Below are positions 262-38,020 of a stretch of DNA of 43,320 nucleotides, piece after piece (the stretch's first letter is position 1; each line of letters begins with the position of its first letter). The stretch is from the IMG/VR virus record IMGVR_UViG_3300010153_000015, positions 1-43,320 of that record. One strand, given 5' to 3'. The notes beneath the pieces were generated by a model. It searched no databases. It was not told where the DNA came from and saw only the letters and a program-made list of their open reading frames with translations. The DNA comes from a virus. A program made the position numbers and the translations under genes.

Positions 262-3200
262 TTAGTCACTACCTTCTGGTTGATAGCGATCTGATATATC
301 AAGTGGTCGGTCACGGGTCTTGGCCTCCAACTCTCCAACAGCGCCCTGGAGCGCCCGCTGGGTTCGGTAATAATGCATTAGTATTGCTGCGTCTTCAGTA
401 GGCATTTGTTGTACGCCGAACAGGATTGACTTCCATCCTTCATCAACGCCAATCCGGGGCCTCGCACCACGGATCGGCTCTCCTTCTGGACCTTGTTGAA
501 AATCAATGTCGCCGGTCTCAGGGTCAATTTGAAATCCTAACGCATTCATAGCCTTATCGAAATCTTCACCCTCCCCAAGGCGTTTATCGTCAACAAGCTT
601 GCCTCTCTTTTCAATCCTCACAAGATGTTTGTAATATTTGAGATCGGCATCAAGCAATTGCGGAATAATCATACCAGCGCGACCAAATCTATTAAGACTG
701 TCAATCATGCGTCCAGCAGGCGCAACGCCGAGCGTTCCTTCTTTAAAGCCTTTGATCGGCTGTAGTCTGGCCAGAAGGCCAATCGGCGTGTAGTCAATCA
801 CCTCTCCAACATCGCCCATCCAACTAGTCCCAGGGGTGTCTTCACGCATTGGCATCACGGGTACTGGGCCATGCCAGATGTTTTGAAGAAGATACCAGTT
901 CATTATCTCTGCGGCTTCCCAGACGTGGGTCTGACCAGGAAACTCTTGCTCTTCGAATTCTTTAATTGCGCGAACTCTTCCCCCGACCCCCCTTAGCATC
1001 ATGCCTCCAGTGGTCAGAATATCGTGCTGAGCCCAGAACGTGGGAATGCGCTCTTCCCTCATTTTAGTCCCTCTAAAGAAAGACTTTTGAATAGTCATGG
1101 CCATTGGAGCCTGAATCCAGGGGTTAAGCCTGGACATAAATCTCAACTGATTCTTCATTCTTTTCTGTCGTAGAATCACATTATCTGTTGGCAGAAAACT
1201 TCCAACAAACGAAAAGAAATCAAGCTGACCCTTTATCGCTTCCATCGCTGGAAGAATAGGCGCATTGTATCTGTTCATCTGGACCATACGATTAGCAGAG
1301 TTTCTTACGAACATGAGACCCAATCGCCCAACACTATAGTCGCTTTCGATTAAGGTTTCGTCACCATCTAAAAACACCCTATTAACACCGCGAGCAAGGC
1401 GGAACTGACCCATTATCCTGTGAGGGTTAGTGAGAAATGTGTCCCAAAACAAATCAAGGTTCTTTCTCTGAAAAGAGTAGAAGATAAAAATCTGCCGCAT
1501 GTACTTCTTTTCGAAAGGAGTAAGATCCGAATAATCAAAAAGAGCACTCCTTGCCGATTTCGCCGCATCAGCAGGAGAGAGCCCCCTGCCAAGACCTTCC
1601 GTAAACAACGCCACTCGATGGTAGTTATCAATGAACGTCGCAAAGTTAATTAACTGTTCATGATAAAATCTTAGAGACCGAACGGGACCAGGAAGCTCCA
1701 CCCCTGCAAAGCCAGGATAATCTACTTCTTTATATGGCAGCTTCTCATACTCTGTTTCCCCCGTCATTTTCTCCCAAAAAGACGGCTCGTTTTTCTTAAG
1801 ATCAGCGGCAATGGACCGCGCTGTTTCCATTGATAAGAATGAGCCAGACAAACCATGCTCGTGGCAAGACTTGGTAATGGCCTCCCTTGACCAAACTGTA
1901 CCATCAGGCGTTACAATTGGTTTTATTTTTGAAAACCGCATTGTCGGAGTCCGGCCCCACAAAGCGGCGGAAACTTCAAGGGCGATACGAGGATGGCTCA
2001 TTGAGGAGAAATACCCTCGCATGCCCACTTTTTGATACACTTGAAGCTGCGCTCCAAAAGCATTCGCTACATAATAGGGCAGGTTGACCATGAAAATACC
2101 TGACGTAAGCCCCATTTTGGTCATGCGGTACGACCAACTAAACGTGTTCATGGTGAAGTTCATGAGATCTGCTGAATTAATATAATCTTTATGGAGTTTA
2201 TTCTTCACTCTCTTGGCTCTGTTCAACAAGCCTGGTAGAGCTTCAGCTTCAGGAAGATGCCCGCTTTCGGTTTTCAGCCTCGATCTCCCGGCCCTTGCAG
2301 AGGCTGTTCCAGCAACACGGTCAACCGCGTCGTTTATTTCATCCAAAAACAATTTTGGCGTGAGGGCCTCGGAGCCGTCCGAAAATCTGGTAAGCTCCCA
2401 GTTCTCAATATTAGCCCCGTATTTCATGCCCCACTTTTCAATAAGGTCTTGAGCAACAGTATATGCTTCAAGATCATCAACTACGACTTTTGTTACTACG
2501 TCACCCATAGTAGCTTGAGTTCGTCTATAGCCCCCTTCCTTTGAAAGGCGCTTCCTGGCTTGTTTGCTAAGTAGCCCAGCGCCCGGCCCGCTTCCCTGTA
2601 GCTTGCCGCCTCCTTCAGCTAAAAACCTAGGACCTTCAAGCCTTGATTGAAGACCTTCATGAAGAAGCGAACCGCTCTCATCAACAAGATGGCCAACCCC
2701 ACCAAACTTCATTTCATCATTAAGATACAGCCTGACTCTCTCCGCGAACGCTCTTTTTTCAGTGATGCTTCGGATCGAGGACGGCGCAAGATCTTCAACC
2801 TTCACAGCCATTCCCATGTCAGTCATGTCATTAATCAAGCCCTTAAAAATACTTTGGGCTCTTAATCTAACAATAGTTTCCAACATCGCATGGGCAAGGT
2901 TGTATCGACCTGGATACTTGAGCGCAGTGCCGGTAGAATATCCTTTGTTTGCAAAGGTTCTAAGAACCTCGCCCCACTCTCCACGGTAGAAGAGATTGTA
3001 CAACGCGATAGCATCGCCCCGTTCTGTAAAAGAGCCGTCTTTACGATTGAAGATCTTTCGCGCAGCCTCTGGTGAACCGGCCATTCCAACAATAATAGTT
3101 TCGACAGCGTCATCAGCCATGTGAAGTCGGCGGGATATGCCCTCTCCGAGAACTAAATAAGCTTCTGCAATAGCCTCGCGCATCAAAGGATCTTTTATTT

Positions 3201-6200
3201 CAACCTTGCCGTTTCTGAGCACAGTGCGTTCTGGTTCAGTTCTCTTGATAAGATCAATTTCACGTAGAAGTTCAATGGCTTTTCGTTCTGTGGGCAACAT
3301 CAATCGGTTGTCCGCAAATGCTATCTGGATGTCATCAAGCCTTTCAACAACGACATCAAAAGATATGCCTCTCTGTGAATCGAAATATACCTCGACGTTA
3401 TCCAAGGTCCTATATGATTGGTTGCTAATAGGTTGTTCAAGAACCTCTTTTAGCCCTTCAAGGGTTTCCCAAACGCCCGAGGCCATGCGACCTTCTTTCA
3501 GTGATTTCTGAACCCGCCTAATCCAGTTCGGAATATCGTCGATTTGACGAGACCTGCGCATGAAAAGCTCTTTTACAATAGGGCTTACAACCTCAGTGTC
3601 TACGCTCGTTTCTTTTCCGGTCTTTGATTTTCTAACATGAGCAAGCGGTGCTCTTGTTTTGAATTTCTTTTTAAGAGAGCGAACTATGATGTCACCGCCA
3701 AACCATTTAAAACCTCTAGAACTCAAAACATTCTGTACAGCAGCATACCCAAGAGATTTCGGAACCTTTTTCATTTCCTTAGTCAAGCCAGTCCCGACCC
3801 CTACTACATGATCCCGAAGCATTTCACGTGTAATAAAATCGTAGTGAGCTTCAGGAAGAACACTTAAGTCTCCGTGTGGCCCAAGGTACTCACCAAGAAC
3901 CATTCTGACTGGATCTTTAGTTCTTGGATCAGCATAAAGCTCAAGAAGCAAAGATTTTAAGTTGACTTGTTGAAGCTCGGTAAGTTCAAAGACAGTTATT
4001 TCAACGGGAACTTCTCTGCCATCAGGAAGAATCTCAGTAGCGACCTCCCATTCTGGCATGCCGTCCTCTCCGATTATTTCGTCTCCAAACCGATCCAACT
4101 TTGCCCGTTCTTTTGGAACCTTTTTCATTTGCTTTTTTAAAGCATGCGGGTCACCGAACACCGAATAGGTTCGAAGCTGCACCTCTTCAAGATACCTGGG
4201 AAGCATACGCGCAGGAACAATGCTTCTTGTTGAAAAGCTCAACCAGTTGTTCGTATATTTTGTGCGAGACATCTCTCTTGAGACGTATTCAACCGCCTTC
4301 TGCATTGTCTTGAAGGTGTCCACCTCCGTGACATCATCGCCAAGCTCAAGGGCATGGCGAATACGGCCCTCATCCAAATCAATACGAGTAGCCTCTTTTG
4401 AGCGACCACCTTTCGCTACTACCTCTGTTTCAAGAACACTCTCTTTTAATGGTACGCGGGGAATCGACTTAAACTCAGCCGAGTCGCTTACGTCAAACAT
4501 CGCTTCTTTCTTTGCATCGTTAAGGACGCCAAGCCACTCATCAAAATACCTACGCACCGCAGGGTTGGTCCGGTCTGCTCTGTGCCTTATGCGCCGCCAA
4601 AACACGGCCAACTTATCTTTAATGCCGTGAAAGGCCATATCAACTTGCGGATCATCCACATTCCTAGAATGCCAAAAGTCAACAAATGCGTCACTAACTT
4701 CTGCTCTGCCGCGACCAGTAAGCGTAGTGACTCCGTTTTCTCCAACGATACTGTCAAACTTATTGGTGAAAACCTCCATCATTTCAGGAAATTCTTCGGC
4801 CATTAAATACAGGAGAGCGTTGCTGTTCTCTTTGAAAAGAACAGATGCGTCCCCCTTATTAAACAAGTCTGACAAGTCGCGACCAGCGCTAATCAATATA
4901 TTTAAAGGAGTTGAAGGCGGCCCACCTTCTCGCATATACAAGGCACCCTTAGACATTTCTGTTGGTAATGGGCGTCCCTCAAAAGGAGCGGTGCCGCCAA
5001 AGCGGCCCTCTTTAAACGAGCTATGAAGATCACGGAAGCCAGCACCAAACAATCCGCTGACTAATCGGCTATGGCGACTTGTAAGATCGGCCTGAACACG
5101 AGGGTCTTTGATCTCAGGGAATGTGGCTTCTAAAGACTTAATGATTGACTTAAGGGCCGCTGGCCGCACGGCTGGAAGCATAGTGCTCCCAGGCTGAACA
5201 ATCACGTGAGGATCAAGATAGCCTCGCCATTCGTCCCAAATCACATGAGACCTTGTTGCTACGTTGCCAAGCACATCGCGTTCTTGAACGTCTCTGGCCA
5301 TGCTTTCAAGCACTTCTTTATAGTCAGGAGACATGACTTCAACATACTTAGTCCCGTCTTTTTCTCTCGATAAGTCTCTTATGAATTTATCAACAATCGG
5401 GTGATCTGAGCCAAACATTTTCTCGGCTGATTCAATGTGCTCGTGAGCTTTAATTGCGTCCTCAAGCTTCCCAACTCTGTCAGCACGCTGTTTAGGGGTG
5501 AGCTTTGTATTAGCTTTTACATCAGCCATAACCTGACGGACTTTTTTAGAATCAATGTTCTTTGTTGGGAAGGCTTTCCTATATTCTGAAACGCCTACAG
5601 GATGAACTTGCAGTCTTTGTGGCGTTGTGATTTCAGTGCGAAGCTGGTCTCGCCAAAACGTGTAGCCAGGATTCGACTTATCGGCCTTAAGGAATTGCTC
5701 GAAAGACACGCTTTCACGACGCTTTCGTTGATCGTTTAATATCTGTTTAGCCCTGGCTTTAATAGCCTTAGTGCTGGGAGCCTTATTCTTTTTCGACTTT
5801 CGAATAAGCTGAGCTTCGGCAACTTCTTCAAGGTGTTTCTTGGCGGCTTTGCTTTTAATTGTGCGCCAATCATCGTACCAGCCCCTGGCTTTATTTTGCC
5901 AGCGTTCTTCTTTTAGGAACTTCTTCCCTATAATACCGATTTGGTGAATATCGATAGCGCTAATCGTAGCCGCTATTGGGTTCTGCCAATAGATTCCGAA
6001 TGCACTAATCTTGGTAGCCATACCAGGCACCATGCTCGACACCCTGTCTGAGAATGCGTCCCATGCTTCATCTGGATAGCGCTCAAAGAATGATTGTTTA
6101 AGATCGCCTCTTTGTACTTTAACAAAATCCTCGTACATCATATCGTACATTTCGAGCAGCTTAGCTGTGTCTGCTGGGCTGGAAAGGACGATGTCTCCGG

Positions 6201-9200
6201 TAAGAGCAATAACATCAGTAGATGAAACCGAGTTCAGAACGGCCCTGTGAGCCATGTCTGCTGCCTCCATCTCTTTGATAGCCTTTTTAAGCTGCGATTT
6301 TGCACGCCGACGTTTAGCCGCATCCTTGATTTTTGGGATTCGAGATTCAATCTTCTCGACTTGTCTCTTGAACTTCGTATAGCGACCAAGAGCTTTCCTT
6401 GCCTTTCCTGCAATCTTATTGGCGTTTAACGATGCAATATCAACGGACTGCACTTCAATCAACGGGCCGCCAGGTTTTGTCCAATCACGAATCTCAATTA
6501 TCGGCAGAACATTGGTCTCAACGTCAAGAAGGATTTGTTTTTTCCCAAACCGATCCTTAAGAGCTTTTGTTCCAATAGTTATAGAGAAGCCAAGAATATG
6601 GTTCGCTTCATTGCGAGTTAAGGGGGAACCCTTGTTTATCGATGCTGCACGAGCCCGACCCACCATGTCTGCCAGGTCCCGCATGCTTCTTGGTCTTGCT
6701 ACGGCAGCAAACATCTGATTGTCTAATAGATTTGTTTGCATCGATAAGAACGCAAACACATACTGTGACGCAACGTCCATTAAATGGACTTCCATTTGTT
6801 GGGCCCACTCAGCACGAGCTTCATTGTTTATAAAACGATTTTCCGAGAAGAAGTCTTCGATATTTGGTCGTTTAGCCTCAAGGCCATAGCCGCTGTGAAG
6901 CTTGTCGTACATCTCCTCGACCATTGCTGTGTAGGCTTCTTTGTACTGTTCAATGATTTCATCAAAGTTGCCGAGGGTGTCGGGCTTTCCAAAAAGACCT
7001 TCACCAACATCTGACCACCATTTTCCAGCAGCCTCGTCGGTAATCATCTCAATCGGGCGTCTCGCTAAATACTGAACGTCCGCAAAGCTAAACACTCCCT
7101 CTTTTCCGCCAGGAATCAACACCTTCATCCCTTGCTCTCCACCAAAACCAGTGGCCTTAAGCATTGGATATACTGGGCCAGAAACTTCCGAACGCTCGAT
7201 CCTTGTGCCTTCTGGTGTTTCTACGATGCGCTCTACGGTGAACTTTGTATCCGTGGAAATGTCCTCAAGAGGAGAAGCGCTACCCATCCTCTGCTTTAAA
7301 ATTTCTGCTTGGTAAGAAGTAATCTCAGAGTTGAAAACCCTTTGCTTAAGACCCGAGTCTACTTCAAAGTCCACAACAGCATGCGGCGTTCCGCCAATCT
7401 TCTCAGATGAAAGATCGAACTCTGCTGCTAACTCTTCTGAGAAGTGCCCTGAATCAAGAGCATCGCGCTCATTGAGAACTTGGCGAATGTCTGGCCCAAG
7501 CCTGTCAACGGCTCCATCAATATCCAAAAGATCAGAAGAACCTGTAGGTCCTGTCGCAACTTTTGTTGTTGGTTCTGCTACTCCCTGAGACTCTCTAAGG
7601 GCTTCAATGCGGCGATTTGCAGTGTTTAGTCTACGCTCATATAGGCGCTTTGTCCCGACCGCTGTGGCCTTGCTCAGACTCTCTTCAGCCTCTGCCGCAC
7701 GCTTCATTAAGATTTGCATCTCGATTGATTCTGGTGCCTTGGCCGCCCCTTTAACAGGCTTCTCCATGAGCGAGATAAACTCAGTCTTGGGTCGCGAAGC
7801 AAGCTCTTCAAGTGGCGCATCGAGCAGTTCATCCGTCACGCGGATCAACTCGGTCAAGGCGTTGTGGTCTTTCTTTGCAACACCGAGCAGGTCTGCGATC
7901 TTTTCGACGAAGACATTCCACATCGACTTGTCTTCAACCTTAATGGTCATCAAATAGTCTTGGAACGTCTTGTTTGTCAGGCCATAAGCAACAAACTCTT
8001 TCACATTTCCAGTCGCGCTTATGAGAACTTCTTCAGTAGCGGCGTCAAGGATTTTCTCTTTTTGGGCTTGTTTAGCAAGCTTGACTACTTGGTTGCGAAG
8101 GTCAAAAATATCAGCCGTAGCTTTTTGAAGCGCAGTGCCCTTGTTCGCAGGACGGTTGCCATCAAAAAGCCGCCTCACGGTGGCTGCATGTACCAACTCG
8201 TGCAGTGCGGCTTCAGCCGTCGTTCCAGAGAAAGCCTCATTCCCGCGAAGGAACACATCATTAAAAGCGTCACCAGCAGGCGACCAATTTAGACCACTGG
8301 TGACTACACTCAACCGAGATTCGTGTGCGGAAATTAAGGTTAATTTATAGGCAATTTTATTTGGTAATGTACCTTTTTTCTCCATGTCGTATACAGCTTT
8401 TGGTATATCCTCGCGGCCCTCAATTACATGCACCTCGGTATCGCCTAAGTGAGGCTTGATACGCTCAGCAATACGTTGGTGTACAGGATTGTCTGCATTT
8501 TCAGCAATAAACTCAGCAAGCTCAGTGCCCGTTTTTGCCTGACGCATGGCAGCGTTGGCTTCTCCGAGAGTCAGTTCACCTAGCCCTACATCGGTTGGGA
8601 CGTTTGATTTCTCGGCTTGAACAACGTCAGTGGGCGGTGCCTCCGCCATCCGAAGCTCAGCGGGAGGTAGTTCTTCCTCCATCCTCAACAGGTCTTGGGC
8701 AACCTCAACCTCATCAAGATCTGGGATGTATTGCCCGTCAAGCCCGGCTCGTTGTCTTGACAAGGCGCTGAACACCCCCTCGTCTGCCATTCGCACCTGG
8801 AACCCCGTAGCTCTGCGCAGCGCAACCTCACGGCGAGAAGCCATACCCGCTGCCTTATCGTCAAACAGGCGGTCAACTAAAGTCGATAGCGCGGGATGAA
8901 AGTCCGTTCTCGCTCTGGGAGCACGCCTATACCAGGAGTTAAACCAGTTAGACATGCGCTCCATCAGGTTGTTAAAAATGCGGAGCAAATCACCAGCGCC
9001 GCGTTGTGTTGCCACAACATTAGGAAGACGATGCGTGATTACGAACTCAGCGAAGTTCTCAGCAAACCATTCATTGAACTGAATGTCGGTCATTGTTTGG
9101 AAGTTTCGCGTGTATGGCGTATCTCTGAACAAGCCAAAGTCGTCCAACTCATCCCTGAAAGCTTTCGAGAGAATCGCGATTTCACTGTCAGCCAAAAACG

Positions 9201-12200
9201 ACATCGCAACACCGTGACCAAGCTCGTGAAGAAACTGGTAGGTGCGAGGGCCGACACGATCAGAGCCTCTCTTATAGGAGTCCAGCGCATGCTCAAATTG
9301 AGATACGAGTTGCTCAGTTTTTTCAGCGGAAAACACCTCGCCCTCTTGTCGCTTCATCCAAGTCTCAGCGTCTACATATCGCTCCGACAACTCACGAGAG
9401 GTATAGGTTTTGCCGGTTTTTGGGTTCTTTCTGTCTGACAAGAACCGAATAGCAACGGATCGAAAACCTTGATTATCATCCCTCTTATAGCGAATGGCTT
9501 CGAAAATCTCATCGAGGTTTGCGCCGATTAAGAAAGAGCTTTCCGCTGCTTTCATCGTTCCGATCTCGTCGGCATAACCGAAAAAATCAACAGAACTAAT
9601 CAGCCGATCAACCGCCCCACCTTCTGTTAGAAGCTCTGTAGTCCTCGCAGAAGCACCTTGTGCAATACCGGCAATCTGATCATTAAGGCGTATGTCTCTC
9701 AACACCCTTTCTGGAAGGGACATAACCAGCGCTTCAAGGACCGCCGCTTGGTCTACCTCAAGAAACCCTTTCTCAGCAAGAGCCCTGATAGACTGAGCAA
9801 TCTGAGCGCGTCCAGCATTAGCCTGGGCGGCAGAAACTTTTGCTTCTCCAGCATCATCCAATGTCTCGCGGGCTCGCCTTACTCGCTCGGAAACATCTTC
9901 AAGAACATTATCGAAAAGCTTTCGAACTGAATCAAGAGTGGCTTCGTCTGAGAACCGGGCCAACATATTGTCTTCTGCCCGAGAAAGTAGTTCTACAAAG
10001 TCATCAAACTTTGATTGAGCGGTAGCAGGCATGTCAGCAAATTCTTTCGCAAGACGATGTGAAATCTCGCCAAGAAGATCGGCACCAATGTCGCTCTTGT
10101 GCGTTGTGCGACTGATAAGAGTCACAAGCATATCCATGCCCATGCTTCTGAGTCTTGCTTTATCTCCAACAGCATTGACGATTTCAAACTGAGCAGCATC
10201 GCTTAAGGCGTTGAGTTGTGCCTCATCCGATAAATCGACATCAACGGTCCTAAGCTCATCAGCAGGAATAGAATCAACAAGCGCTTGTTTGGCTGAATCA
10301 ACCTCGCCTGCGCGTGATCCAATCGTCATGCTCGGTGGCTCTACAGATCGGCCCGATTTAATGTCATTAAGCAATGATTCCATGTAGGTCTCAATTGCTT
10401 TACTCCCCTCTTCGAGGCCCCTGACCCGCGCAAGACCAACAGCATGGGTTTCAATCATTGCCATTAGAGAATCGACAACGTCAATACCTTCAAGAGACTT
10501 GTAGTTCAGGGGATTTCTTTCATTGGCTGCTTCAAGCTCATCTCTAAGGCGAGAGTATGAGGCTGATTCCCGAATACCTTTTGTGTAATCGTCCACGCTA
10601 TCAAGGCGTGCTGCTGCTTCTGAAAGAAACTTAGCAGTCCTCATCTTCGAGGAGTCTTTAAGAACGCGATTCACATCTTCAGCAGCGATACCACCGCGCC
10701 GCATGACCTCAAACACATTAGAACGAAATTTTGGACCAAACCCCTCAAGCGGGTTGCGGCCTTGTAGTAGGTTCTTATTGAAAAGTTCACCGGCCATCAT
10801 GCTTGTTAAATCGTGCATGCCCCCGAACTTTTTGGTTAGAGGTGCCGGACCCATGCCAGGTATGGCATTTCTCCAACCCATAAAACCTCGTTGCCGACTT
10901 TTGGCTTCTCGCATCCTTTTTTTGGCCAGGCTTAGCTCAGGGTCACCGAAAATGACTTCCCTCAAATCTCTTCGACCCAGCCTTTCTACAGTATCGGCTC
11001 GACGTTTTGCTGCTCCAGTCGTTGCCGTGTCTACTGCTTTTTGGTAATCCGCAATGTCTTCAACGGGCGCAACTTTCTTCCACAGACTCCCGAACCCATA
11101 AATGCCGTCTGCCAAATACGCGGCCCGCATTGTGTCGAGGGCAATCGGTGCGCCAGGCATGTCTTTGTAAATCTTCCTTAGACGGGCTGTGCCTACAAAA
11201 GGTCGAGCCAATGTTGCTAAACCCATCTCCTCAACAGGAACAAGAAAATCTAAACCCAGACCAGTGGCTATTGAGGCTTTATAAAAGCTGCTGTTTTTGT
11301 CATAGCCTAAACCAAGCGCCGTTTCTCCAAGCCTATCCATAAACCCAGCAGCACCATAAGGGTCCATACCGGACCACGAATCGTTGATGCTGCCACGGTC
11401 GCTAGCGCGGCCATCCCAATCCCACGCGCCGAACTGATCTCCAATAGCCATGATCGGATCAGATATGACATCCATGGCTATCTCAGAAATAGGGCCAGCA
11501 AAAAACTCACCCCCAACCCGCAAGAAGGTGCCCGCACCATTTTCATCTATGGTAACAGTTGTTCCATCTTCGAGGTAACGAGAGTCGGTCATCGCGTTAC
11601 CCAGCGTCTGGATCGCGAAATCGCCAACCTTTCTGTCTTCTGGGCCGTACATCGCCTCTCTTGCTGCTGTCTGACGTTCGATGTTTTTACGAATGCCTTC
11701 GTAGCCCCCCATTTTTTTAAAAACGCCAGAGCCTATTTTGCCTGGAAGGGTGTAAAGCTTTTGGCGATTAAGCTGACTCTCAATGGTTTCCCAGCCATCG
11801 TCGGAGTGAACGTACTCCTCAAGGTACACGCCCTCGTCCTCGGCCCTTTCTTTGGCCCCTTGGATGATTCTATAGATCGCAGGATGTAAATACAGAACAT
11901 CTGGATTTTCAACATAGATGCTGAGCGCTTGAGGCGGCTGCACTGGGTAGTTCTGAGCTTTTAGAAACTCGTCCTTAAACTCAGAGAATGACGGAACGTC
12001 TAACAGGTAATCGTTGACTCGTATGTCATCACGAGACTTACCCAAAAACATTTTTGTAAACTCGGCCTTCCGCACTGACGGGTCGTCTGAGATAAGTTCT
12101 TCGTTGTCAAAAAACTTTTTAAAATCCTCTGCAACTTCACTGCCCCACAAAGCTGTGTTTATCTGGCCAAAATCAGAACCAGGCACATCGATACCTAGAG

Positions 12201-13746
12201 CATCTCCAATACGCACAGGCAATTGCGCTACCGTGCTGCCTACCTGGGTTACAGTTTGAAAAGATGTTTTAAACGCTGTACCGGAACCGCTAAAATCGAT
12301 CTCTGGGCCATAGGGATTTACTGCTTTAAAAACAGGATTGGCGAACATAGCCGTGTTGCCCCACCAACTATCCTGCATGTGGCCCGCCCTGGTCGCCCAC
12401 GGGTCTTCACCCAATTCATTTTCACTAACAATTCTGAGCCTTCTGTCCGGCCATAAATCACTGGGGATTTGCTGGATTATTCTGTTCAGCCTTTTGGTAA
12501 TCTCTTCGCCATCACGCCCAGAGTCAAGCATTTCTTGCCTGACCCGCCAAATATCAATCGCTGCTTTTACCCGTTCAGCGACCTGACTATTTGTTGGATA
12601 TGTATCGATGTCATTCCAGTCTTCTTCACCGCTACGTTTGGCACCGCCTCTCTTCTTCCATTCAGAAACCCAGTCAGAAGGCTGTGCGATCCAAGTGCTT
12701 TCTATAGAGCCCACTTCCTTGGATCGTTTTGCCTCCTTAAGAAAAGCATCTCTCTGCTGAACATATTGGCCAAGCACATCTATAAATGAAGCGTTGCCCA
12801 ACGCAATGTTGTTTTGCTGTTCCAAATGTTCGTTGTAAGTCTTTAATTCTTCTTCACTAGCTTTTCCTAAATGAGCCCGAATCTCAACCGTTTCATACCA
12901 GGGCCTAAACTGCCCAGTATCTGGGTGTGCTGCATCTTTGTGTGCTTTTTCTGCCGGATGACCGGGGTAAACGACGCGAGGATTAAACGTCTGATCACGA
13001 TTTCTCCACCACCTCTGGCCTCGCGATTGGCCATAATACTTTTCAGAAACAGTTTCAGCATCAACATGCCAAGGGTTGACCTTACTGGACGCCCAGGATG
13101 CGACTGATCGCACCCCGCTACCAAGAGCGCTCTCGTTAGCTATTTCTCCAAAAGATTGAAATACTCCGGGCCGAAGAGTCAGGTTCTCTGCTTGCGTGAC
13201 TCTATCCACAAGGTCTTGGCCTGAACTCTCGTGTCTAGAAGAAGTGGCTTGGAAAGATCGGGCTATAGCCTCATCTTCAGTGAGGCCCTCCGCTTGTTGA
13301 AGAGCGTCTTTTACATTGTAAAACATCCTGTCTTCAAGACGCTCTTGATACGTTGCCGTTTGAGAATAGGAGCCAGGAACAGGGAACACCGACTCCCTTG
13401 GATAAAGCTTTCTGAGAAAAACACGTTCTGCGTTATCCTCTGCCTGGCCTTCTGCTGCCCAAGCTTCCGCTGCGCGATTCGGGCTGCTCGGATGTTCGCT
13501 AATAAGATTCAAGTATTCTATGGATTTCTTATCTCTTTCCTCATCAGTCAACCCTGGGGTGGTTTCGTCAACAAACTGATTGGCCGCCTCAATGTACCTT
13601 CTTTGAAGGTCTTCACCATGCACGATGTCAATCGTTGGAGGCTCTCTCTCCATGTAGCCTTCAGGGACCGTTACAAGATCTTCGTATTCGTCATCAATAG
13701 ACGAGGTGGCTACCCTTACGGGGCCAAGAGGCGGCAGCTTAGCCAT
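262..13746 (-). CDS. Giant 4494-aa polyvalent virion/ejection-type protein with two zincin motifs and an HhH-glycosylase-like region
   Basis: One uninterrupted frame of 4494 codons, probably an internal virion protein delivered with the DNA. Visible landmarks: HELGH at 1507-1511 with NEWFAENFAEF at about 1558-1568 (possible third zinc ligand E1563 or E1567); HELVH at 1849-1853 with VKEFVAYG around E1917. Both fit gluzincin-like metalloproteases. VPGMATKIS ending near K2579-S2581, followed by IDIH with D2599, resembles the HhH-GPD glycosylase core. WDEWRGYLDPH lies near 2837-2847. Lysine/arginine-rich helices fill about 2490-2720. A hydrophobic stretch (GIFMVNLPYYVANAF) lies near 3880-3900. 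ALFDYSDLTPFE starts at 4068, a phrase I associate with other giant phage proteins. The start is four bases after the stop of the upstream 1053-aa gene. No T7- or N4-type polymerase motifs were found. Enzyme activities are inferred; existence of the gene is certain. Confidence 0.85.
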   Translation of the reverse strand: MAKLPPLGPVRVATSSIDDEYEDLVTVPEGYMEREPPTIDIVHGEDLQRRYIEAANQFVDETTPGLTDEERDKKSIEYLNLISEHPSSPNRAAEAWAAEGQAEDNAERVFLRKLYPRESVFPVPGSYSQTATYQERLEDRMFYNVKDALQQAEGLTEDEAIARSFQATSSRHESSGQDLVDRVTQAENLTLRPGVFQSFGEIANESALGSGVRSVASWASSKVNPWHVDAETVSEKYYGQSRGQRWWRNRDQTFNPRVVYPGHPAEKAHKDAAHPDTGQFRPWYETVEIRAHLGKASEEELKTYNEHLEQQNNIALGNASFIDVLGQYVQQRDAFLKEAKRSKEVGSIESTWIAQPSDWVSEWKKRGGAKRSGEEDWNDIDTYPTNSQVAERVKAAIDIWRVRQEMLDSGRDGEEITKRLNRIIQQIPSDLWPDRRLRIVSENELGEDPWATRAGHMQDSWWGNTAMFANPVFKAVNPYGPEIDFSGSGTAFKTSFQTVTQVGSTVAQLPVRIGDALGIDVPGSDFGQINTALWGSEVAEDFKKFFDNEELISDDPSVRKAEFTKMFLGKSRDDIRVNDYLLDVPSFSEFKDEFLKAQNYPVQPPQALSIYVENPDVLYLHPAIYRIIQGAKERAEDEGVYLEEYVHSDDGWETIESQLNRQKLYTLPGKIGSGVFKKMGGYEGIRKNIERQTAAREAMYGPEDRKVGDFAIQTLGNAMTDSRYLEDGTTVTIDENGAGTFLRVGGEFFAGPISEIAMDVISDPIMAIGDQFGAWDWDGRASDRGSINDSWSGMDPYGAAGFMDRLGETALGLGYDKNSSFYKASIATGLGLDFLVPVEEMGLATLARPFVGTARLRKIYKDMPGAPIALDTMRAAYLADGIYGFGSLWKKVAPVEDIADYQKAVDTATTGAAKRRADTVERLGRRDLREVIFGDPELSLAKKRMREAKSRQRGFMGWRNAIPGMGPAPLTKKFGGMHDLTSMMAGELFNKNLLQGRNPLEGFGPKFRSNVFEVMRRGGIAAEDVNRVLKDSSKMRTAKFLSEAAARLDSVDDYTKGIRESASYSRLRDELEAANERNPLNYKSLEGIDVVDSLMAMIETHAVGLARVRGLEEGSKAIETYMESLLNDIKSGRSVEPPSMTIGSRAGEVDSAKQALVDSIPADELRTVDVDLSDEAQLNALSDAAQFEIVNAVGDKARLRSMGMDMLVTLISRTTHKSDIGADLLGEISHRLAKEFADMPATAQSKFDDFVELLSRAEDNMLARFSDEATLDSVRKLFDNVLEDVSERVRRARETLDDAGEAKVSAAQANAGRAQIAQSIRALAEKGFLEVDQAAVLEALVMSLPERVLRDIRLNDQIAGIAQGASARTTELLTEGGAVDRLISSVDFFGYADEIGTMKAAESSFLIGANLDEIFEAIRYKRDDNQGFRSVAIRFLSDRKNPKTGKTYTSRELSERYVDAETWMKRQEGEVFSAEKTEQLVSQFEHALDSYKRGSDRVGPRTYQFLHELGHGVAMSFLADSEIAILSKAFRDELDDFGLFRDTPYTRNFQTMTDIQFNEWFAENFAEFVITHRLPNVVATQRGAGDLLRIFNNLMERMSNWFNSWYRRAPRARTDFHPALSTLVDRLFDDKAAGMASRREVALRRATGFQVRMADEGVFSALSRQRAGLDGQYIPDLDEVEVAQDLLRMEEELPPAELRMAEAPPTDVVQAEKSNVPTDVGLGELTLGEANAAMRQAKTGTELAEFIAENADNPVHQRIAERIKPHLGDTEVHVIEGREDIPKAVYDMEKKGTLPNKIAYKLTLISAHESRLSVVTSGLNWSPAGDAFNDVFLRGNEAFSGTTAEAALHELVHAATVRRLFDGNRPANKGTALQKATADIFDLRNQVVKLAKQAQKEKILDAATEEVLISATGNVKEFVAYGLTNKTFQDYLMTIKVEDKSMWNVFVEKIADLLGVAKKDHNALTELIRVTDELLDAPLEELASRPKTEFISLMEKPVKGAAKAPESIEMQILMKRAAEAEESLSKATAVGTKRLYERRLNTANRRIEALRESQGVAEPTTKVATGPTGSSDLLDIDGAVDRLGPDIRQVLNERDALDSGHFSEELAAEFDLSSEKIGGTPHAVVDFEVDSGLKQRVFNSEITSYQAEILKQRMGSASPLEDISTDTKFTVERIVETPEGTRIERSEVSGPVYPMLKATGFGGEQGMKVLIPGGKEGVFSFADVQYLARRPIEMITDEAAGKWWSDVGEGLFGKPDTLGNFDEIIEQYKEAYTAMVEEMYDKLHSGYGLEAKRPNIEDFFSENRFINNEARAEWAQQMEVHLMDVASQYVFAFLSMQTNLLDNQMFAAVARPRSMRDLADMVGRARAASINKGSPLTRNEANHILGFSITIGTKALKDRFGKKQILLDVETNVLPIIEIRDWTKPGGPLIEVQSVDIASLNANKIAGKARKALGRYTKFKRQVEKIESRIPKIKDAAKRRRAKSQLKKAIKEMEAADMAHRAVLNSVSSTDVIALTGDIVLSSPADTAKLLEMYDMMYEDFVKVQRGDLKQSFFERYPDEAWDAFSDRVSSMVPGMATKISAFGIYWQNPIAATISAIDIHQIGIIGKKFLKEERWQNKARGWYDDWRTIKSKAAKKHLEEVAEAQLIRKSKKNKAPSTKAIKARAKQILNDQRKRRESVSFEQFLKADKSNPGYTFWRDQLRTEITTPQRLQVHPVGVSEYRKAFPTKNIDSKKVRQVMADVKANTKLTPKQRADRVGKLEDAIKAHEHIESAEKMFGSDHPIVDKFIRDLSREKDGTKYVEVMSPDYKEVLESMARDVQERDVLGNVATRSHVIWDEWRGYLDPHVIVQPGSTMLPAVRPAALKSIIKSLEATFPEIKDPRVQADLTSRHSRLVSGLFGAGFRDLHSSFKEGRFGGTAPFEGRPLPTEMSKGALYMREGGPPSTPLNILISAGRDLSDLFNKGDASVLFKENSNALLYLMAEEFPEMMEVFTNKFDSIVGENGVTTLTGRGRAEVSDAFVDFWHSRNVDDPQVDMAFHGIKDKLAVFWRRIRHRADRTNPAVRRYFDEWLGVLNDAKKEAMFDVSDSAEFKSIPRVPLKESVLETEVVAKGGRSKEATRIDLDEGRIRHALELGDDVTEVDTFKTMQKAVEYVSREMSRTKYTNNWLSFSTRSIVPARMLPRYLEEVQLRTYSVFGDPHALKKQMKKVPKERAKLDRFGDEIIGEDGMPEWEVATEILPDGREVPVEITVFELTELQQVNLKSLLLELYADPRTKDPVRMVLGEYLGPHGDLSVLPEAHYDFITREMLRDHVVGVGTGLTKEMKKVPKSLGYAAVQNVLSSRGFKWFGGDIIVRSLKKKFKTRAPLAHVRKSKTGKETSVDTEVVSPIVKELFMRRSRQIDDIPNWIRRVQKSLKEGRMASGVWETLEGLKEVLEQPISNQSYRTLDNVEVYFDSQRGISFDVVVERLDDIQIAFADNRLMLPTERKAIELLREIDLIKRTEPERTVLRNGKVEIKDPLMREAIAEAYLVLGEGISRRLHMADDAVETIIVGMAGSPEAARKIFNRKDGSFTERGDAIALYNLFYRGEWGEVLRTFANKGYSTGTALKYPGRYNLAHAMLETIVRLRAQSIFKGLINDMTDMGMAVKVEDLAPSSIRSITEKRAFAERVRLYLNDEMKFGGVGHLVDESGSLLHEGLQSRLEGPRFLAEGGGKLQGSGPGAGLLSKQARKRLSKEGGYRRTQATMGDVVTKVVVDDLEAYTVAQDLIEKWGMKYGANIENWELTRFSDGSEALTPKLFLDEINDAVDRVAGTASARAGRSRLKTESGHLPEAEALPGLLNRAKRVKNKLHKDYINSADLMNFTMNTFSWSYRMTKMGLTSGIFMVNLPYYVANAFGAQLQVYQKVGMRGYFSSMSHPRIALEVSAALWGRTPTMRFSKIKPIVTPDGTVWSREAITKSCHEHGLSGSFLSMETARSIAADLKKNEPSFWEKMTGETEYEKLPYKEVDYPGFAGVELPGPVRSLRFYHEQLINFATFIDNYHRVALFTEGLGRGLSPADAAKSARSALFDYSDLTPFEKKYMRQIFIFYSFQRKNLDLFWDTFLTNPHRIMGQFRLARGVNRVFLDGDETLIESDYSVGRLGLMFVRNSANRMVQMNRYNAPILPAMEAIKGQLDFFSFVGSFLPTDNVILRQKRMKNQLRFMSRLNPWIQAPMAMTIQKSFFRGTKMREERIPTFWAQHDILTTGGMMLRGVGGRVRAIKEFEEQEFPGQTHVWEAAEIMNWYLLQNIWHGPVPVMPMREDTPGTSWMGDVGEVIDYTPIGLLARLQPIKGFKEGTLGVAPAGRMIDSLNRFGRAGMIIPQLLDADLKYYKHLVRIEKRGKLVDDKRLGEGEDFDKAMNALGFQIDPETGDIDFQQGPEGEPIRGARPRIGVDEGWKSILFGVQQMPTEDAAILMHYYRTQRALQGAVGELEAKTRDRPLDISDRYQPEGSD

Positions 13747-18228: not shown

Positions 18229-18705
18229 TCAACTCCATCCAAACTTGTTCATTACAGTTCTGCGATACGGGTCCATCGGCATTCTGCCACCGGCTTGCAT
18301 TGGCATGCTGGATGCCAAGACGCTCATGTCAGACGGGGCTGCTGGCAAGGAAACGGATCGCATTGTACCGCCTCCTTTTGACGCCGTCGCTGCTGCTGCT
18401 TGGGCTGAACGAGAGGCATCCTCTGACATTCTTTCGAGCTTCTTTGCCTGCTTGGCCTTTTCGTTCTCAGCTTTCCGGTCATAGTCGTCCATGAACATCC
18501 CGGCGACACCGCCGACAAGGAAACCAACACCAGCGCCAATAGCAGTGCCAATACCTGGGGCAACCCCAGTGCCAATCGTTGCACCAAGCGAAGCGTATTC
18601 GGCACCCATCGTAAGACCGCTCTTTGCAGACGCTTCTACCTCCTTTCTCCAAGACGCTTTCTTCTCTTCGTCAGAGAGGCCAGTACCGCCGTATGCATCA
18701 GCCAT
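18229..18705 (-). CDS. Small glycine-zipper membrane-active protein
   Basis: This 158-aa protein has a clear glycine-zipper hydrophobic stretch at about residues 38-72, with repeated Gly every three to four residues (GATIGTGVAPGIGTAIGAGVG). A Lys/Glu-rich amphipathic helix (about 75-100) and an Ala/Gly/Ser-rich region follow. Glycine zippers form oligomeric membrane helices, so a role in the ejection channel or in lysis (pore) is possible. The position next to the internal-virion-like genes favours ejection. The start codon overlaps the stop of the upstream appendage gene as TAATG at 18705, implying coupled translation. No holin family is recognisable. Confidence 0.65.
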   Translation of the reverse strand: MADAYGGTGLSDEEKKASWRKEVEASAKSGLTMGAEYASLGATIGTGVAPGIGTAIGAGVGFLVGGVAGMFMDDYDRKAENEKAKQAKKLERMSEDASRSAQAAAATASKGGGTMRSVSLPAAPSDMSVLASSMPMQAGGRMPMDPYRRTVMNKFGWS

Positions 18706-32890: not shown

Positions 32891-33542
32891 CGCTCCTCCT
32901 TATGTCAGCCCATTCATTAGAAGTGAAGTATTCAGTTTCTTTTGTCTCTGGGTAATAAACGCCAATCTCGTCATCCTCGAACTCGCCAGATGCGTTGGTT
33001 TCATACGCTATCCCATGGCCCCCTGGCATATCACCAGTCCACGCCAAGGCGAGGTCTTCGTAGAACAAATCGGAGTCGTCGTCCATGAAAGCCTCGATGG
33101 CGTTCTTCGCGTTCTTCTTTTCCTCATCGGGCCACTTGTGTTCCTTTGCTGCGTTGTCAATCTCATCCATAAGATGATCAACCCCGCGTGTCGGGGGCTC
33201 ATCAACGGGGGGCTCAGGGGTATGGATAGGGGGACGTGGGTGATTCTTTCTCCATTTTTTCAGTCTTTCCCACGCTTCTATAGACTTCCGAATTTCGTCC
33301 ATACCTTTCTCAAGTACCTCCATTTTTTCAGGGCTAACTAAATCAGGATCTCTTGCCTCTGGGGAGGTCCAGCCTCTACCTATGGTGCGAATAGTCTCTT
33401 CCCATTCCTCCTCTGACATCTCGCCAGCGAGGCCGGGCTTTCTCTTTTTCTTTCTCCGGGTCGTTTCTGGAGGCCCACCCATCAGGCTTTCGCCTGGGCG
33501 CGGGTATCGCATCTCCCCTGTTAGTGGATCGTAGCCAGCCAT
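32877..33542 (-). CDS. Hypothetical late protein, 221 aa
   Basis: Not recognised. The opening MAGYDPLTGEMRYPRPGESLMGGPPE resembles the opening of the proline-rich 206-aa protein at 28936-29556. A basic cluster (RRKKKRKPG at about 29-37), a helical middle, a proline-rich hinge (HPRPPIHTPEPPVDEPP) and an acidic C-terminal domain (DDDSDLFYEDLALAW) follow. The start is coupled to the 1492-aa gene stop by TAATG at 33542. The shared N-terminal phrase may be a virion-incorporation or partner-binding tag. Confidence 0.6.
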   Translation of the reverse strand: MAGYDPLTGEMRYPRPGESLMGGPPETTRRKKKRKPGLAGEMSEEEWEETIRTIGRGWTSPEARDPDLVSPEKMEVLEKGMDEIRKSIEAWERLKKWRKNHPRPPIHTPEPPVDEPPTRGVDHLMDEIDNAAKEHKWPDEEKKNAKNAIEAFMDDDSDLFYEDLALAWTGDMPGGHGIAYETNASGEFEDDEIGVYYPETKETEYFTSNEWADIRRSDGAR

Positions 33543-36500
33543 TACCGCCTCGTCCCCGGCAAATACGCTCTCCTGTAACGAGCCTCATCCACTTTCTGCT
33601 GTTCGGAGCCTTGATAAGCTCGGTCAGCTTCTTCCTCCGCTGAAAGACCGGGCTCACTGTAACGACCCACAAACCCGGCTCTCTTAGGAGTGATAAGATC
33701 CGTAGAGAGGCCAGCGCCCTTACTGACACGACCCACAAGCCCGGCGTTCTCTGAATCCTCAAGACCTTCCCAAAACTGACGCATCCCCCCTGTTCCTTCG
33801 GGAAGCCGCTCCCTCATCTGCCGATCTCGTTCCTGGGACCGCCTGATATTTTCGACCATCATTCCGCTCTGTGCTGGGAAGCCGTCCATCATGACATCTC
33901 GATCACTTACCCTTCTTTGAAGGTCGTCGATTGCTTCTTGTGTGGATTCTCCAGAGACATCCCTCATGGCCATTTGGCGAATTTCACTTTCGGAAAGATT
34001 AGGCTCAAGCTCTCTATAGAAAGCCTTCTGTCTTTCGTAATGCGCCCTTCTGTCCTCTCGCGAGCGCATCCGACGATATGGTTTCATGGTGCTCGACACG
34101 CCTCGACCAACCGCAGCAAGGCCCTCGGCTGCGACTTCTGGAGAAGTAAGAAGGCCCTTTTCCTGCCTTTCTTCATGACTCGGGAGGAGGCTTGCCAGCG
34201 CAGCAGGGGCTTGCGCTATCATTCCCATGCCCTCAACACCCGTGGCTGCGGTGGACGCAACGCCGCCACCTATCGAGTCCTCTTTGTAAATATTCCAGCC
34301 AAGCTCTGCTACAAATGCGGCATCGCCAAGCGCCACAAGAACAGGGACAGCCTTAGCGGCTGCGGCCCGGAGCTTGGCCAGCTTTGTGACGACTCCTTCT
34401 GTTTGCTCCATCTTTCTAAGGTTTACAATAGCCTCGCTTACCCGTTTTGATTGTTTCCTAAAATGTTCTTTTTGTGCTTCAGACATCTGCTCTGCCATCT
34501 TCTGAGCGTCGGGGGCAGCGTTGCGGCCAGAAACAGTCATCTGGTTCTCTGGGATATTGCTACCACTAACCATCATCTTACGCTTGCCTTCGAACTCGGG
34601 TGCCATGCCCCGTGACAACATATCATCGACATCTTCTCGCTTCCAACCGTAACGTGACGGGGTTTTTTCTAGATGCTCTACAGCAGAACCCTCAACCCAA
34701 TCGCTTTGGCTTGGGATGCGGCCAAACTTTTGCTTGTACGCTCTGGCCGAACCTAACCGAGTCCTGCCTGGGTACAGTTCCTCGATCTCGTCAAGAGCAT
34801 CTTGCGCGTCTTCGGCAAATTCCCACCCTGACAATACGCCCCCGGTTTCCCGGTCGTATACATAGTAATCATAATCTGGATATTTAGAACCAGACCGGAG
34901 AAACTCAGGATCATGAAAGCCTTCATCACCTCCATACATAAGGTTCCATTCGTCTTGCGGACCTGTAGGGGATTGGGGCCGGAGAAACTCAGGATCATGA
35001 AAGCCTTCATCACCTCCATACATAAGGTTCCATTCGTCTTGCGGACCTGTAGGGGATTGGGGGTCGATTCCGCGCATAAGAAGGTCGTCATCACTAAGAG
35101 GACGGCCCTCCCACTGTGCCTCGACTTCAGTCGGGGTAAAGATGTTGAGCCCAGACGCTGGGTCTTGGGCAATAAAAGCCTTCTGCTGCGAAGTCATCTC
35201 TGGGGGAGTGACTGACCTATAATTCTCTCTTGAGGGGCCAGAACTGATATTATGGGGGTCTGGCTCCCACGGTGGGTGAATGGTCGGCTCCCCTGTCATT
35301 GGAGGATATAAACGAGGAGAACGACCCTCGGGTACTCCAGCAGACCCAGGAAGCTCGCCTGCAATCTTGTAATCCTGAATCAACTGTGGGATTGATTTTC
35401 CAGACCGGCGATTCTCTGGGATTTCCACGAAGTCTACGAAACTCTCCCTTGGAATCCCCTCGTCCTGAAGGAGATCGCCTAAGCTTGGTCGGGCAGCCCT
35501 TGCGGCCCTTCCTCCAGCAGCCCTCTCCCCTCGCCTGAGTTGACCCTCTTGGCGTCGGGTCTCCATCTCATGACCGAACACTTCTTCTTCAATGAATGGC
35601 TCCGCAACAGTAGAGGCATACCTTTCTTCAAGTTCTCTAAAAGAGCGAGCGCGGCCTTCCTGGACGGAATCGTAGGAGGCTTGAAGCCTCTCCTGTGTTT
35701 TCGCAAGGCCCTTCTGCGCGTGTTCAAGGTCTTCCTCAAGGTAGCCCTGCCAGGGCAGGTAACCACGCCGGTCTTCTGGACTTAGATTTGCTATCTCGTC
35801 TCTAAGTCTCCGAACCTCTGCTGCTTGTTCGTCATGCAGTGTAAACAGGTCCCCCATCTGACGATATCCGCCCCGGCCATGCCGGAGAAACTTATCTGGA
35901 TCATTAAAACTTCTCGGCAGGGTGCTTGTGCCCCGCCCTCCGGGCTTCATCTCAGTTCGATAGACATCCTCAAGATACCTAAACGCTTTGTCTTCGTCTG
36001 CAATATAGAGAGTCTTCCCGTCGTCGCTTAGGCTTAAACCGGCGTCCGCAAGATCTTCCGCGTCCGCCCAGTTGTTGAGGATATCCGCAAAATACCTTTG
36101 CTCACTTGGGGATAGTTGCTTTTGTAATGGTGTAGCCATGGCTTTAGCTCCTTTTATAGGTATTGATTCTTCAAGTAACTGGGTAGAAGGCTTAGCGAAG
36201 CTGGGCGGCGTTAAACGCTCTGGGCCGATGTAAACCCCTGTCCCGTTTGTGGGGCGTCTTGTCTTTAGTGACCCCCACACGCGCTCGGCTTCGGGGGTCG
36301 TAGCGCCTGCGCCAGAACCAGATGGGGCAAAGAATACTCCGCCTGGGTACTTCTGCTCTAAAAGCTCAGTAGCGGCATCGTACATCTTGGAGCCGAGTCC
36401 TTGGCCACGGAGATGTTCAGCAAGCTGGACATCTTTGACCGCTTGCCCAGCCATTCCTTCTGGTAGGTCTGGAAACATCTCGCGAAGGCTTCTTGCCCAG

Positions 36501-38020
36501 TCGGGGTCAGCGGCCTCTTCCAGAGAGGCAAGCTGAAGCCTGCCTTGCGGGGCTGGGTTGCCCTGCTCGAAAACAAGAATCTCCATACGCTCGGGTATGA
36601 TCTCTATGCGGGCCATGGCTCTGGCTCCTGTAGGAGGTACTGATTCTTCAAGTAACTTGGAAGAGGCTTCTCTTGGGATTCCGGTAATCTGAGAATCCCT
36701 TGCCGCCTGTTCTATTTGAGGCTTAAGGGTAAGAATTCCATCTTGAATGTGCCCAATGATGTGGTCAGCAGAGAGTCTTCCGGTCCAAGGCTTGCTGCTT
36801 GCCGTCATTTTATACCCTCGCTGGGAGGGATCACTTGGGGGGAAGTTCTTTAGTAGGGGTCTGTCCCCCGTTTTTCCGGGGGATCGGGTTTCACGAGCTT
36901 CCGCAACCGTTTCATAGAGCGGGTGGCCCGGAGTAATCCTCTCACCCACTTGATCTATATGAGTAATGTCATCTGGAAGTTCCACGATGTAGGTCCGAGT
37001 TGAGGGACTCGTCTCTGCCATGTACTCAGTGCCAACTCCTCCCCTGGAGGTGCCGCCAGGGCCTTTTCCCAATCTTTGCTCTCCCGACCCAAGAGGCCCA
37101 AGAAGAAAAGGTCTTATGTTAGTGCTTTCGCCATAATGCCGGTAAAAGAGCCCATGCTCATCAATGCTTTGCAGGACTGAGGCTGCTTGGTCTGGTGAAC
37201 CAGTCCTTACTGTGTGGAGATAGTAAGAGTGTCCGGGGCGCACCATTCCAGGGACTTGCTTATCTAAAGCAATGCGGTTTGCACGACGGAAAGCCTTCTT
37301 GTACGGATCATCAGTAGGGTCCTGCCTCCTATAAGTTTCGTCTACGGCCTCCCGTACTTGCCGCGCAATCCGAGTGGCGAGATCCTCTGGAACATCATCA
37401 GCCATGGGCAATCCTCTGGCTGGCATAGCTTCTTCAAGTAACTGGGCCGGAAGGTCACGGGGCTGGTCGGTTGCGTATTCGGCTCTGGGAAGACCTCGAT
37501 TCGGCCCCTCAGTTTCCCACGGGGCATCCATTGTCTTGGTCCCGTCTTCTGAGATTAGTTGTGTAGGAAGGTCTTCATTGTAGTCGAGCAGGCTTGGGTC
37601 CCTCTGTTCGGACCAGCGCACCCCCCCTCCCGACGATAAAGACTGTATTCGTACTGGCATTTTCTCATAGCCAAGTTTCTTCAAGGCGTTCGCCCTATGC
37701 CGACCATCGTGATTCTGGACTCGTCCGTCACTGGCATCAATCCCCAACTTCGGGACCTCGTCCATCTCGGTCCCGCCGCGCATTAATCTTGTAATCTCAT
37801 GGATTGCGTCTATAGACTTTTCACCCGTGAAAGGGCCAAAATACCTTAAGTCATCCATGCTCTCTATCGGAATCGCCATATCCAGAAACTCATCTGGCGA
37901 CATATAGACAATCATGTCTTTGGACTTGCGGCGAGGAATAAACTCACCAGGAGTGAACTCTTCACGCCAACTCTTCAACGTCGGGAAGAGTTCGTCTACT
38001 GGGCGCTTGGGATCAGACAT
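33542..38020 (-). CDS. 1492-aa mosaic protein with ParB-like and GNAT-like modules and repeated linkers
   Basis: Modules in order: a ParB/sulfiredoxin-like region (about 90-125, VQNHDGRHRANALKKLG with DGRHRA at 105-110); a second module of unknown type from M206; a GNAT-like module from M469 with acetyl-CoA-loop-like RGQGLG at 538-543; a fourth module from M628 with a long coiled coil (about 720-830). Linkers before M206, M469 and M628 share 'QLLEE(A/S)xP' or 'KLLEESVP' plus a Gly-rich end and Met-Ala. A perfectly duplicated 28-residue unit lies at about 987-1042. An Ala/Gly hydrophobic stretch lies near 1285-1330, and AGxVGRxS repeats near the end. It sits between terminase and portal, where such a large gene is unusual. 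The start at 38020 has only AAGG nine bases upstream but overlaps a 12-codon leader ORF. Enzyme activities are inferred. Confidence 0.8.
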   Translation of the reverse strand: MSDPKRPVDELFPTLKSWREEFTPGEFIPRRKSKDMIVYMSPDEFLDMAIPIESMDDLRYFGPFTGEKSIDAIHEITRLMRGGTEMDEVPKLGIDASDGRVQNHDGRHRANALKKLGYEKMPVRIQSLSSGGGVRWSEQRDPSLLDYNEDLPTQLISEDGTKTMDAPWETEGPNRGLPRAEYATDQPRDLPAQLLEEAMPARGLPMADDVPEDLATRIARQVREAVDETYRRQDPTDDPYKKAFRRANRIALDKQVPGMVRPGHSYYLHTVRTGSPDQAASVLQSIDEHGLFYRHYGESTNIRPFLLGPLGSGEQRLGKGPGGTSRGGVGTEYMAETSPSTRTYIVELPDDITHIDQVGERITPGHPLYETVAEARETRSPGKTGDRPLLKNFPPSDPSQRGYKMTASSKPWTGRLSADHIIGHIQDGILTLKPQIEQAARDSQITGIPREASSKLLEESVPPTGARAMARIEIIPERMEILVFEQGNPAPQGRLQLASLEEAADPDWARSLREMFPDLPEGMAGQAVKDVQLAEHLRGQGLGSKMYDAATELLEQKYPGGVFFAPSGSGAGATTPEAERVWGSLKTRRPTNGTGVYIGPERLTPPSFAKPSTQLLEESIPIKGAKAMATPLQKQLSPSEQRYFADILNNWADAEDLADAGLSLSDDGKTLYIADEDKAFRYLEDVYRTEMKPGGRGTSTLPRSFNDPDKFLRHGRGGYRQMGDLFTLHDEQAAEVRRLRDEIANLSPEDRRGYLPWQGYLEEDLEHAQKGLAKTQERLQASYDSVQEGRARSFRELEERYASTVAEPFIEEEVFGHEMETRRQEGQLRRGERAAGGRAARAARPSLGDLLQDEGIPRESFVDFVEIPENRRSGKSIPQLIQDYKIAGELPGSAGVPEGRSPRLYPPMTGEPTIHPPWEPDPHNISSGPSRENYRSVTPPEMTSQQKAFIAQDPASGLNIFTPTEVEAQWEGRPLSDDDLLMRGIDPQSPTGPQDEWNLMYGGDEGFHDPEFLRPQSPTGPQDEWNLMYGGDEGFHDPEFLRSGSKYPDYDYYVYDRETGGVLSGWEFAEDAQDALDEIEELYPGRTRLGSARAYKQKFGRIPSQSDWVEGSAVEHLEKTPSRYGWKREDVDDMLSRGMAPEFEGKRKMMVSGSNIPENQMTVSGRNAAPDAQKMAEQMSEAQKEHFRKQSKRVSEAIVNLRKMEQTEGVVTKLAKLRAAAAKAVPVLVALGDAAFVAELGWNIYKEDSIGGGVASTAATGVEGMGMIAQAPAALASLLPSHEERQEKGLLTSPEVAAEGLAAVGRGVSSTMKPYRRMRSREDRRAHYERQKAFYRELEPNLSESEIRQMAMRDVSGESTQEAIDDLQRRVSDRDVMMDGFPAQSGMMVENIRRSQERDRQMRERLPEGTGGMRQFWEGLEDSENAGLVGRVSKGAGLSTDLITPKRAGFVGRYSEPGLSAEEEADRAYQGSEQQKVDEARYRRAYLPGTRR
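34895..35062. repeat. Perfect 84-bp tandem duplication
   Basis: Copies at 34895-34978 and 34979-35062 are identical base for base by eye. The unit is 28 codons, so the frame of the 1492-aa gene is kept. The translated unit contains SPTGPQDEWNLMYGGDEG. Full identity at the DNA level, including third positions, points to a recent duplication. Confidence 0.95.
36137..36153 (-). promoter_or_regulatory. Internal ribosome site with in-frame ATG, copy 3
   Basis: On the minus strand AAGGAG (36148-36153) lies eight bases before an in-frame ATG (36137-36139, M628 of the 1492-aa protein). The 20-30 bases before it match those ahead of M469. Internal initiation would yield an 865-residue C-terminal product. 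Whether it is used is not shown. Confidence 0.4.
36614..36629 (-). promoter_or_regulatory. Internal ribosome site with in-frame ATG, copy 2
   Basis: On the minus strand AGGAG (36625-36629) lies eight bases before an in-frame ATG (36614-36616, M469 of the 1492-aa protein), which opens the GNAT-like module. Initiation here would yield a 1024-residue product. Confidence 0.4.
37403..37417 (-). promoter_or_regulatory. Internal ribosome site with in-frame ATG, copy 1 (weaker)
   Basis: On the minus strand AGAGGA (37412-37417) lies six bases before an in-frame ATG (37403-37405, M206 of the 1492-aa protein). The upstream AGTTACTTGAAGAA is shared with the other two copies. Initiation here would yield a 1287-residue product. 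Confidence 0.3.

Follow-up and report, generated by a model that had tools for sequence, protein, structure and literature searches.

A candidate OGG2/DUF7178-like HhH-GPD DNA-glycosylase domain in a 4494-residue, probably ejected phage protein

The window, a 43,320-nucleotide stretch of viral DNA, encodes a protein of 4494 amino acids on its minus strand (window:262-13746). We consider it reasonably probable, from sequence comparison, that residues about 2300-2850 of this giant form a divergent, insertion-bearing HhH-GPD DNA-glycosylase domain of the OGG2/DUF7178 branch, carried in a probable ejected virion protein. Directly observed are the motifs, their strict conservation, a statistical kinship of the region to the phage family DUF7178, and a kinship of DUF7178 to OGG2. 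An earlier note on this DNA had pointed to VPGMATKIS (residues 2573-2581, window 6004-6030), to K2579, to D2599 lying 20 residues later in AIDIHQ (residues 2597-2602, window 5941-5958), and to WDEWRGYLDPH, and all of these are found in the 4494-aa protein where the note had put them. That note placed a glycosylase-like core at window positions 5200-6050; the domain that we propose is larger. The features on which the analysis turns are as follows, all on the minus strand.

262..13746, minus strand: the 4494-aa giant, a probable internal (ejected) virion protein of polyvalent type, from its open reading frame, gene order and a matching stretch.
9214..9228, minus strand: first zincin motif HELGH, residues 1507-1511, kept in all five family members.
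8188..8202, minus strand: second zincin motif HELVH, residues 1849-1853, lacking in L009 and L010; the surrounding stretch is matched by phage proteins.
5197..6849, minus strand: proposed OGG2/DUF7178-like HhH-GPD domain, residues about 2300-2850, from a block-chain test, unguided alignment and conservation in five members.
6703..6768, minus strand: helix segment containing VFAFLSMQTNLLDNQMF, residues 2327-2348, whose counterpart helices are LSP...W..N in DUF7178 and ISTANSSA in OGG2.
6067..6534, minus strand: lineage-specific, largely helical insertion, residues 2405-2560, in all five members, with helices in the model.
5983..6063, minus strand: helix-hairpin-helix (HhH) with hairpin MVPGMA, residues 2562-2588, with predicted helices at 2562-2572 and 2578-2588.
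6010..6012, minus strand: K2579, candidate Schiff-base lysine, invariant in five members and aligned with the Lys that is invariant in 48 of 48 DUF7178 sequences.
5950..5952, minus strand: D2599, candidate catalytic aspartate in A-[IL]-D-I-H, invariant in five members and aligned with the Asp that is invariant in 48 of 48 DUF7178 sequences.
5206..5238, minus strand: WDEWRGYLDPH, residues 2837-2847, in which W2837 is the counterpart of a C-terminal Trp invariant in both DUF7178 and OGG2.

The region, used as a query against IMG/VR, returned four relatives and no more, on the contigs of L001, L006, L009 and L010, whose identity to the window over residues 2180-2870 is 95%, 64%, 56% and 51%, respectively. 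When the HhH core, the WDEWRG segment and the C-terminal part served as queries in further viral scans, these four contigs came back again, joined by a single distant one on which we found no copy of the domain; a tblastn search of the named phages in the phage collection matched nothing, and the genome collection searched with the window family held no member. Within these five proteins S2335, N2343, P2574, G2575, K2579, F2583, D2599, H2601 and W2837 are invariant, as is the whole of VPGMATKI, and the LSMQTNLLDN helix (residues 2334-2343), upstream of the HhH, belongs to the same domain. A strict pattern, [LIVM]PG[VMIL][GA].K[TIVA][AS] with D.H after it, has a single match in the giant and none in 3000 shuffles, and a looser one (PG...K to D.H) occurs in 18 of 3000; both patterns were drawn up with the site already seen, and these counts serve as a guide only.

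Standard profiles do not reach the region. The giant, its pieces and its relatives gave no usable match in Pfam, PHROG or NCBIfam; PF00730 (HhH-GPD) is absent from the window's record by family search, and the HMMER model of PF23802 (DUF7178) matched neither the window domain nor its four relatives (G001, G203, G204, G205). The HMM search against both profiles that the earlier note had proposed thus came back empty, and by strict profile membership the domain lies outside PF00730 and PF23802.

The name DUF7178, which that note had brought up, nevertheless proved apt, PF23802 being a family of phage proteins that share the motif order. We retrieved such proteins with a consensus-like query, and Pfam then named them PF23802; one of them, Mycobacterium phage Kumao gp115, is annotated as an N-glycosylase. 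One viral scan yielded 138 DUF7178 relatives that passed a confirmation step, and we aligned 48 of the 80 gathered viral loci (L031-L110). Ten columns of this alignment show little or no variation (W, Y, S, N, K, F, D, A, Q, W), and six invariant residues (S, N, K, F, D, W) recur in the same order in the window domain: an S...N helix, then K...F, D-x-[HW] and, at the C-terminal end, a Trp, as in Kumao gp115. The Lys and Asp stand 17-21 residues apart in DUF7178 (18 in 28 of 48 sequences and 20 in 15) and 20 apart in the window. The C-terminal Trp of DUF7178 is usually accompanied by an Arg four residues on, to which WDEWRGYLDPH is the window's counterpart.

We examined this likeness with four DUF7178 blocks whose limits were set by DUF7178 conservation, though with the window site already known. 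Run over the whole giant with a five-row profile, the best chain fell on residues 2327-2842 (block positions 2327 to 2829); no shuffle reached its score, among 1000 full (column) and 1000 local ones, and the reversed giant scored far lower. The middle blocks of this chain lie at 2547 and 2570, off K2579 and D2599. When the window sequence was used alone the chain fell at 2327/2575/2595/2829, with the D block coinciding with D2599 and the K block shifted by two residues from its site, and 4 of 200 shuffles reached its score. Negative-control phage proteins were not significant in this test (26-190 of 200 shuffles reach their scores), and a true DUF7178 giant gave z = 25. Taken singly, the first block ranks this site first of 4473 positions in the giant and the Trp block, at WDEWRGYLDPH, first of 4481, while the D and K blocks rank it 16th and 31st of about 4480. 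An unguided MAFFT alignment also brought into register the S, N, K, F, D and W residues that are invariant in the window family and DUF7178. As stand-alone proof this letter superposition was dropped, since shuffled columns equal it in 1-2 of 120 trials. Direct hhalign comparisons of the window family with DUF7178 and with OGG2 were both not significant (Prob 0.1-0.3 over the two); at default settings, the best local match of DUF7178 on the whole giant was the LSMQT helix, at 2330-2347 within the 2327-2348 segment, and it too was not significant.

The two families differ in architecture. DUF7178 proteins are about 200 aa long and mostly stand-alone, whereas the window domain covers about 550 aa and has long insertions; the one at 2405-2560, between the first helix and the HhH, is missing from both DUF7178 and OGG2. 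Among the DUF7178 proteins examined, at least two far exceed the usual 200 aa. A second phage giant, of 1914 aa (L147:8153-13897, plus strand), has a clear DUF7178 domain, and such domains therefore do occur in phage giants. A 681-aa phage protein (L045:1324-3369, plus strand) carries its DUF7178 domain at the N terminus, ahead of a long tail.

In a sequence search of the whole PDB, the DUF7178 profile had as its best match an 8-oxoguanine DNA glycosylase/AP lyase (E 0.6), and a joint profile of DUF7178 and the window family found the same enzyme at E 0.02, the best PDB sequence matches being of OGG2 type. Against an archaeal OGG2 alignment that we built for the purpose, hhalign gave DUF7178 Prob 90.9 and E 1.1e-6, with the Lys, the Asp-x-His and the C-terminal Trp aligned, whereas reversed and 60 shuffled OGG2 controls gave Prob at most 0.4. 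On the strength of this score and the low controls, DUF7178 is very probably an OGG2-like HhH-GPD family. Pfam lists it without a function, our literature search found no paper naming it, and a large phage branch of the HhH-GPD glycosylases may stand unannotated.

The archaeal and thermophile OGG2 enzymes (PDB 9o00, 3n0u) resemble the window domain in sequence, with an HhH followed by a Lys, Asp-x-His and a C-terminal helix with an invariant Trp, but their GMKEASHF hairpin signature is unmatched in the window. OGG2 blocks scanned across about 4480 positions of the giant rank the D2599 site first (DRH block) and the Trp site ninth, and the helix block ranks fourth, at 2326; the K block ranks 1080th, and the four-block chain was not significant (616 of 1000 shuffles reach its score). 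In OGG2 the terminal K207 reads 8-oxoG (PMC9638937). That Lys is absent here, as the domain runs on into the giant and lacks a Lys terminus, and because it is missing we do not predict 8-oxoG as the substrate. In AGOG, a Lys and an Asp equivalent to K249 and D268 of OGG1 are both essential (PMC9638937). Canonical HhH-GPD enzymes such as EndoIII and OGG1 share with the window domain, in sequence, a PG hairpin, a Lys and an Asp about 18-20 residues on; the window domain differs from them in its large insertions and its lack of a PF00730 match. The LSMQT of the window is reminiscent of the LSxQ helix of EndoIII. The HhH-GPD kinship first proposed through OGG1 and endonuclease III is supported by an indirect route, by way of DUF7178 and OGG2, and the closest kin are OGG2 rather than either of those enzymes.

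A structure model from the five family rows was poor (pLDDT 56, with 26-48 in the HhH region) and was set aside. With 26 DUF7178 rows added, pLDDT rose to 67.5 (56-81 in the HhH region) and the model showed helices at 2562-2572 and 2578-2588, with K2579 starting the second and D2599 just before a helix that begins at 2600, an arrangement seen only with the DUF7178 rows in the alignment. A PDB fold search with this mid-confidence model (691-residue query) returned no HhH-GPD protein or glycosylase, only helical-bundle noise; the long helical insertions probably dominate the query. A viral fold search gave one good match, the uncharacterised 614-aa phage protein A0A6J5LUD9 (E 2.9e-4). The earlier note had looked to profiles and predicted fold for its refutation: the profiles match nothing, whereas the model built with DUF7178 rows puts the HhH, K2579 and D2599 together as expected.

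The setting of the gene suggests how such a domain might be deployed. The giant ends a late gene block that also holds TerL, the major head protein, a transglycosylase and an internal virion protein, all upstream of it and in the same orientation. A stretch around or near HELVH matches phiKMV gp37-type internal virion proteins, CP2 ORF24 and a DarB-like protein. In being very large, late, furnished with zincin motifs and placed beside virion genes, the giant resembles the phage polyvalent and phiKMV gp37-type proteins, and it is probably a polyvalent, ejected virion protein of the kind described in PMC5512222; its place in the virion is suggested by gene order. The main text of that survey makes no mention of a glycosylase, whereas the giant has a candidate for one. 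Two further proteins of the window may be recorded here: a 1492-aa protein adjoining TerL (33542-38020, minus strand) without Pfam or PHROG matches, and one at 18229-18705 (minus strand) whose matches, to tape-measure proteins and the like, are all weak and which is perhaps a coiled coil.

Residues 1690-2060 of the giant (window about 7570-8680) and the matching parts of L001, L006, L009 and L010 constitute a plug-in hotspot. The second zincin is present there in three members and deleted in two; L001 has an extra module of roughly 210 aa, and L006 and L010 have a different module of 140+93 aa, none of these modules having a significant Pfam match. In contrast to this neighbouring region, where modules come and go, region 2300-2850 is kept in all members.

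Two other readings of the region must be weighed against a glycosylase. It could be a relative of the HhH-GPD enzymes that no longer works as an enzyme and only binds DNA, helping for instance to arrange or steer the genome in packaging or ejection. The hairpin has lost the second Gly of the canonical PGxGxK (it reads PGMATK), long insertions lie near the core, the 8-oxoG-reading Lys is gone, and the giant is very large and probably structural, all of which would suit a binding domain. Pure DNA binding, however, needs neither the Lys nor the Asp, and K2579, D2599 and W2837 are invariant in all five members while other stretches of the giant drift to 32-45% identity between the window and L006; we regard this reading as unlikely. 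A chance resemblance, in which an unrelated helical segment of a virion protein happens to contain PG...K and D.H, seems to us slightly less likely still. It draws on the missing profile and PDB fold matches, the non-significant direct hhalign comparisons, and the shuffles that reproduce the loose motif and the letter superposition. Against it, the two flanking DUF7178 blocks each take first rank in the giant and on the correct sides of the HhH, shuffling did not reproduce the profile chain score, and the OGG2 D block puts this site first.

If the domain is an active glycosylase, as we prefer to think, its target could be the incoming phage genome, with its stored damage, or the DNA of the host. 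We weakly favour repair of the phage genome. An enzyme directed at the DNA of the host, or else at DNA that the host has modified or that belongs to a rival, in attack or counter-defence, strikes us as an improbable sub-case, on a par with the binding-only reading. Polyvalent virion proteins have been proposed as carriers of early conflict effectors (PMC5512222), and Brig1 (PMC11078745) is a case of a DNA glycosylase serving the host in its conflict with phages, but ten of the larger proteins elsewhere on a relative's contig included no DNA-modification gene. Nor did these ten proteins point to a DNA-modification role.

The fold of the domain in the window, its catalysis, its substrate and its packaging are what we infer in the scheme that follows. 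In the glycosylase domain, a long insertion would separate the first conserved helix from the HhH, with further extra sequence before the C-terminal Trp motif. The giant would be packaged and ejected along with the genome, perhaps after being cut by its own zincin domain or domains. The HhH would then grip DNA, and a base would flip into a pocket with W2837 in its lining; with the aid of D2599, K2579 would attack C1' and release the base, and the K2579 step may be followed by a backbone nick through beta-elimination.

A bolder proposal, which we hold tentatively and with clearly less confidence than the domain assignment itself, is that the family represents a new OGG2-derived HhH-GPD clade with large insertions that serves as an injected particle enzyme, and that DUF7178 overall makes up a widespread but overlooked phage offshoot of OGG2, excising a base still to be named. 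A literature search found no paper with the phrase phage-encoded DNA glycosylase, and none on ejected phage proteins together with a DNA glycosylase. If the assignment is true, some phages would deliver a base-excision enzyme with their genome, to mend stored damage before replication or to attack the DNA of a new host, and the phage family DUF7178 would gain a testable function.
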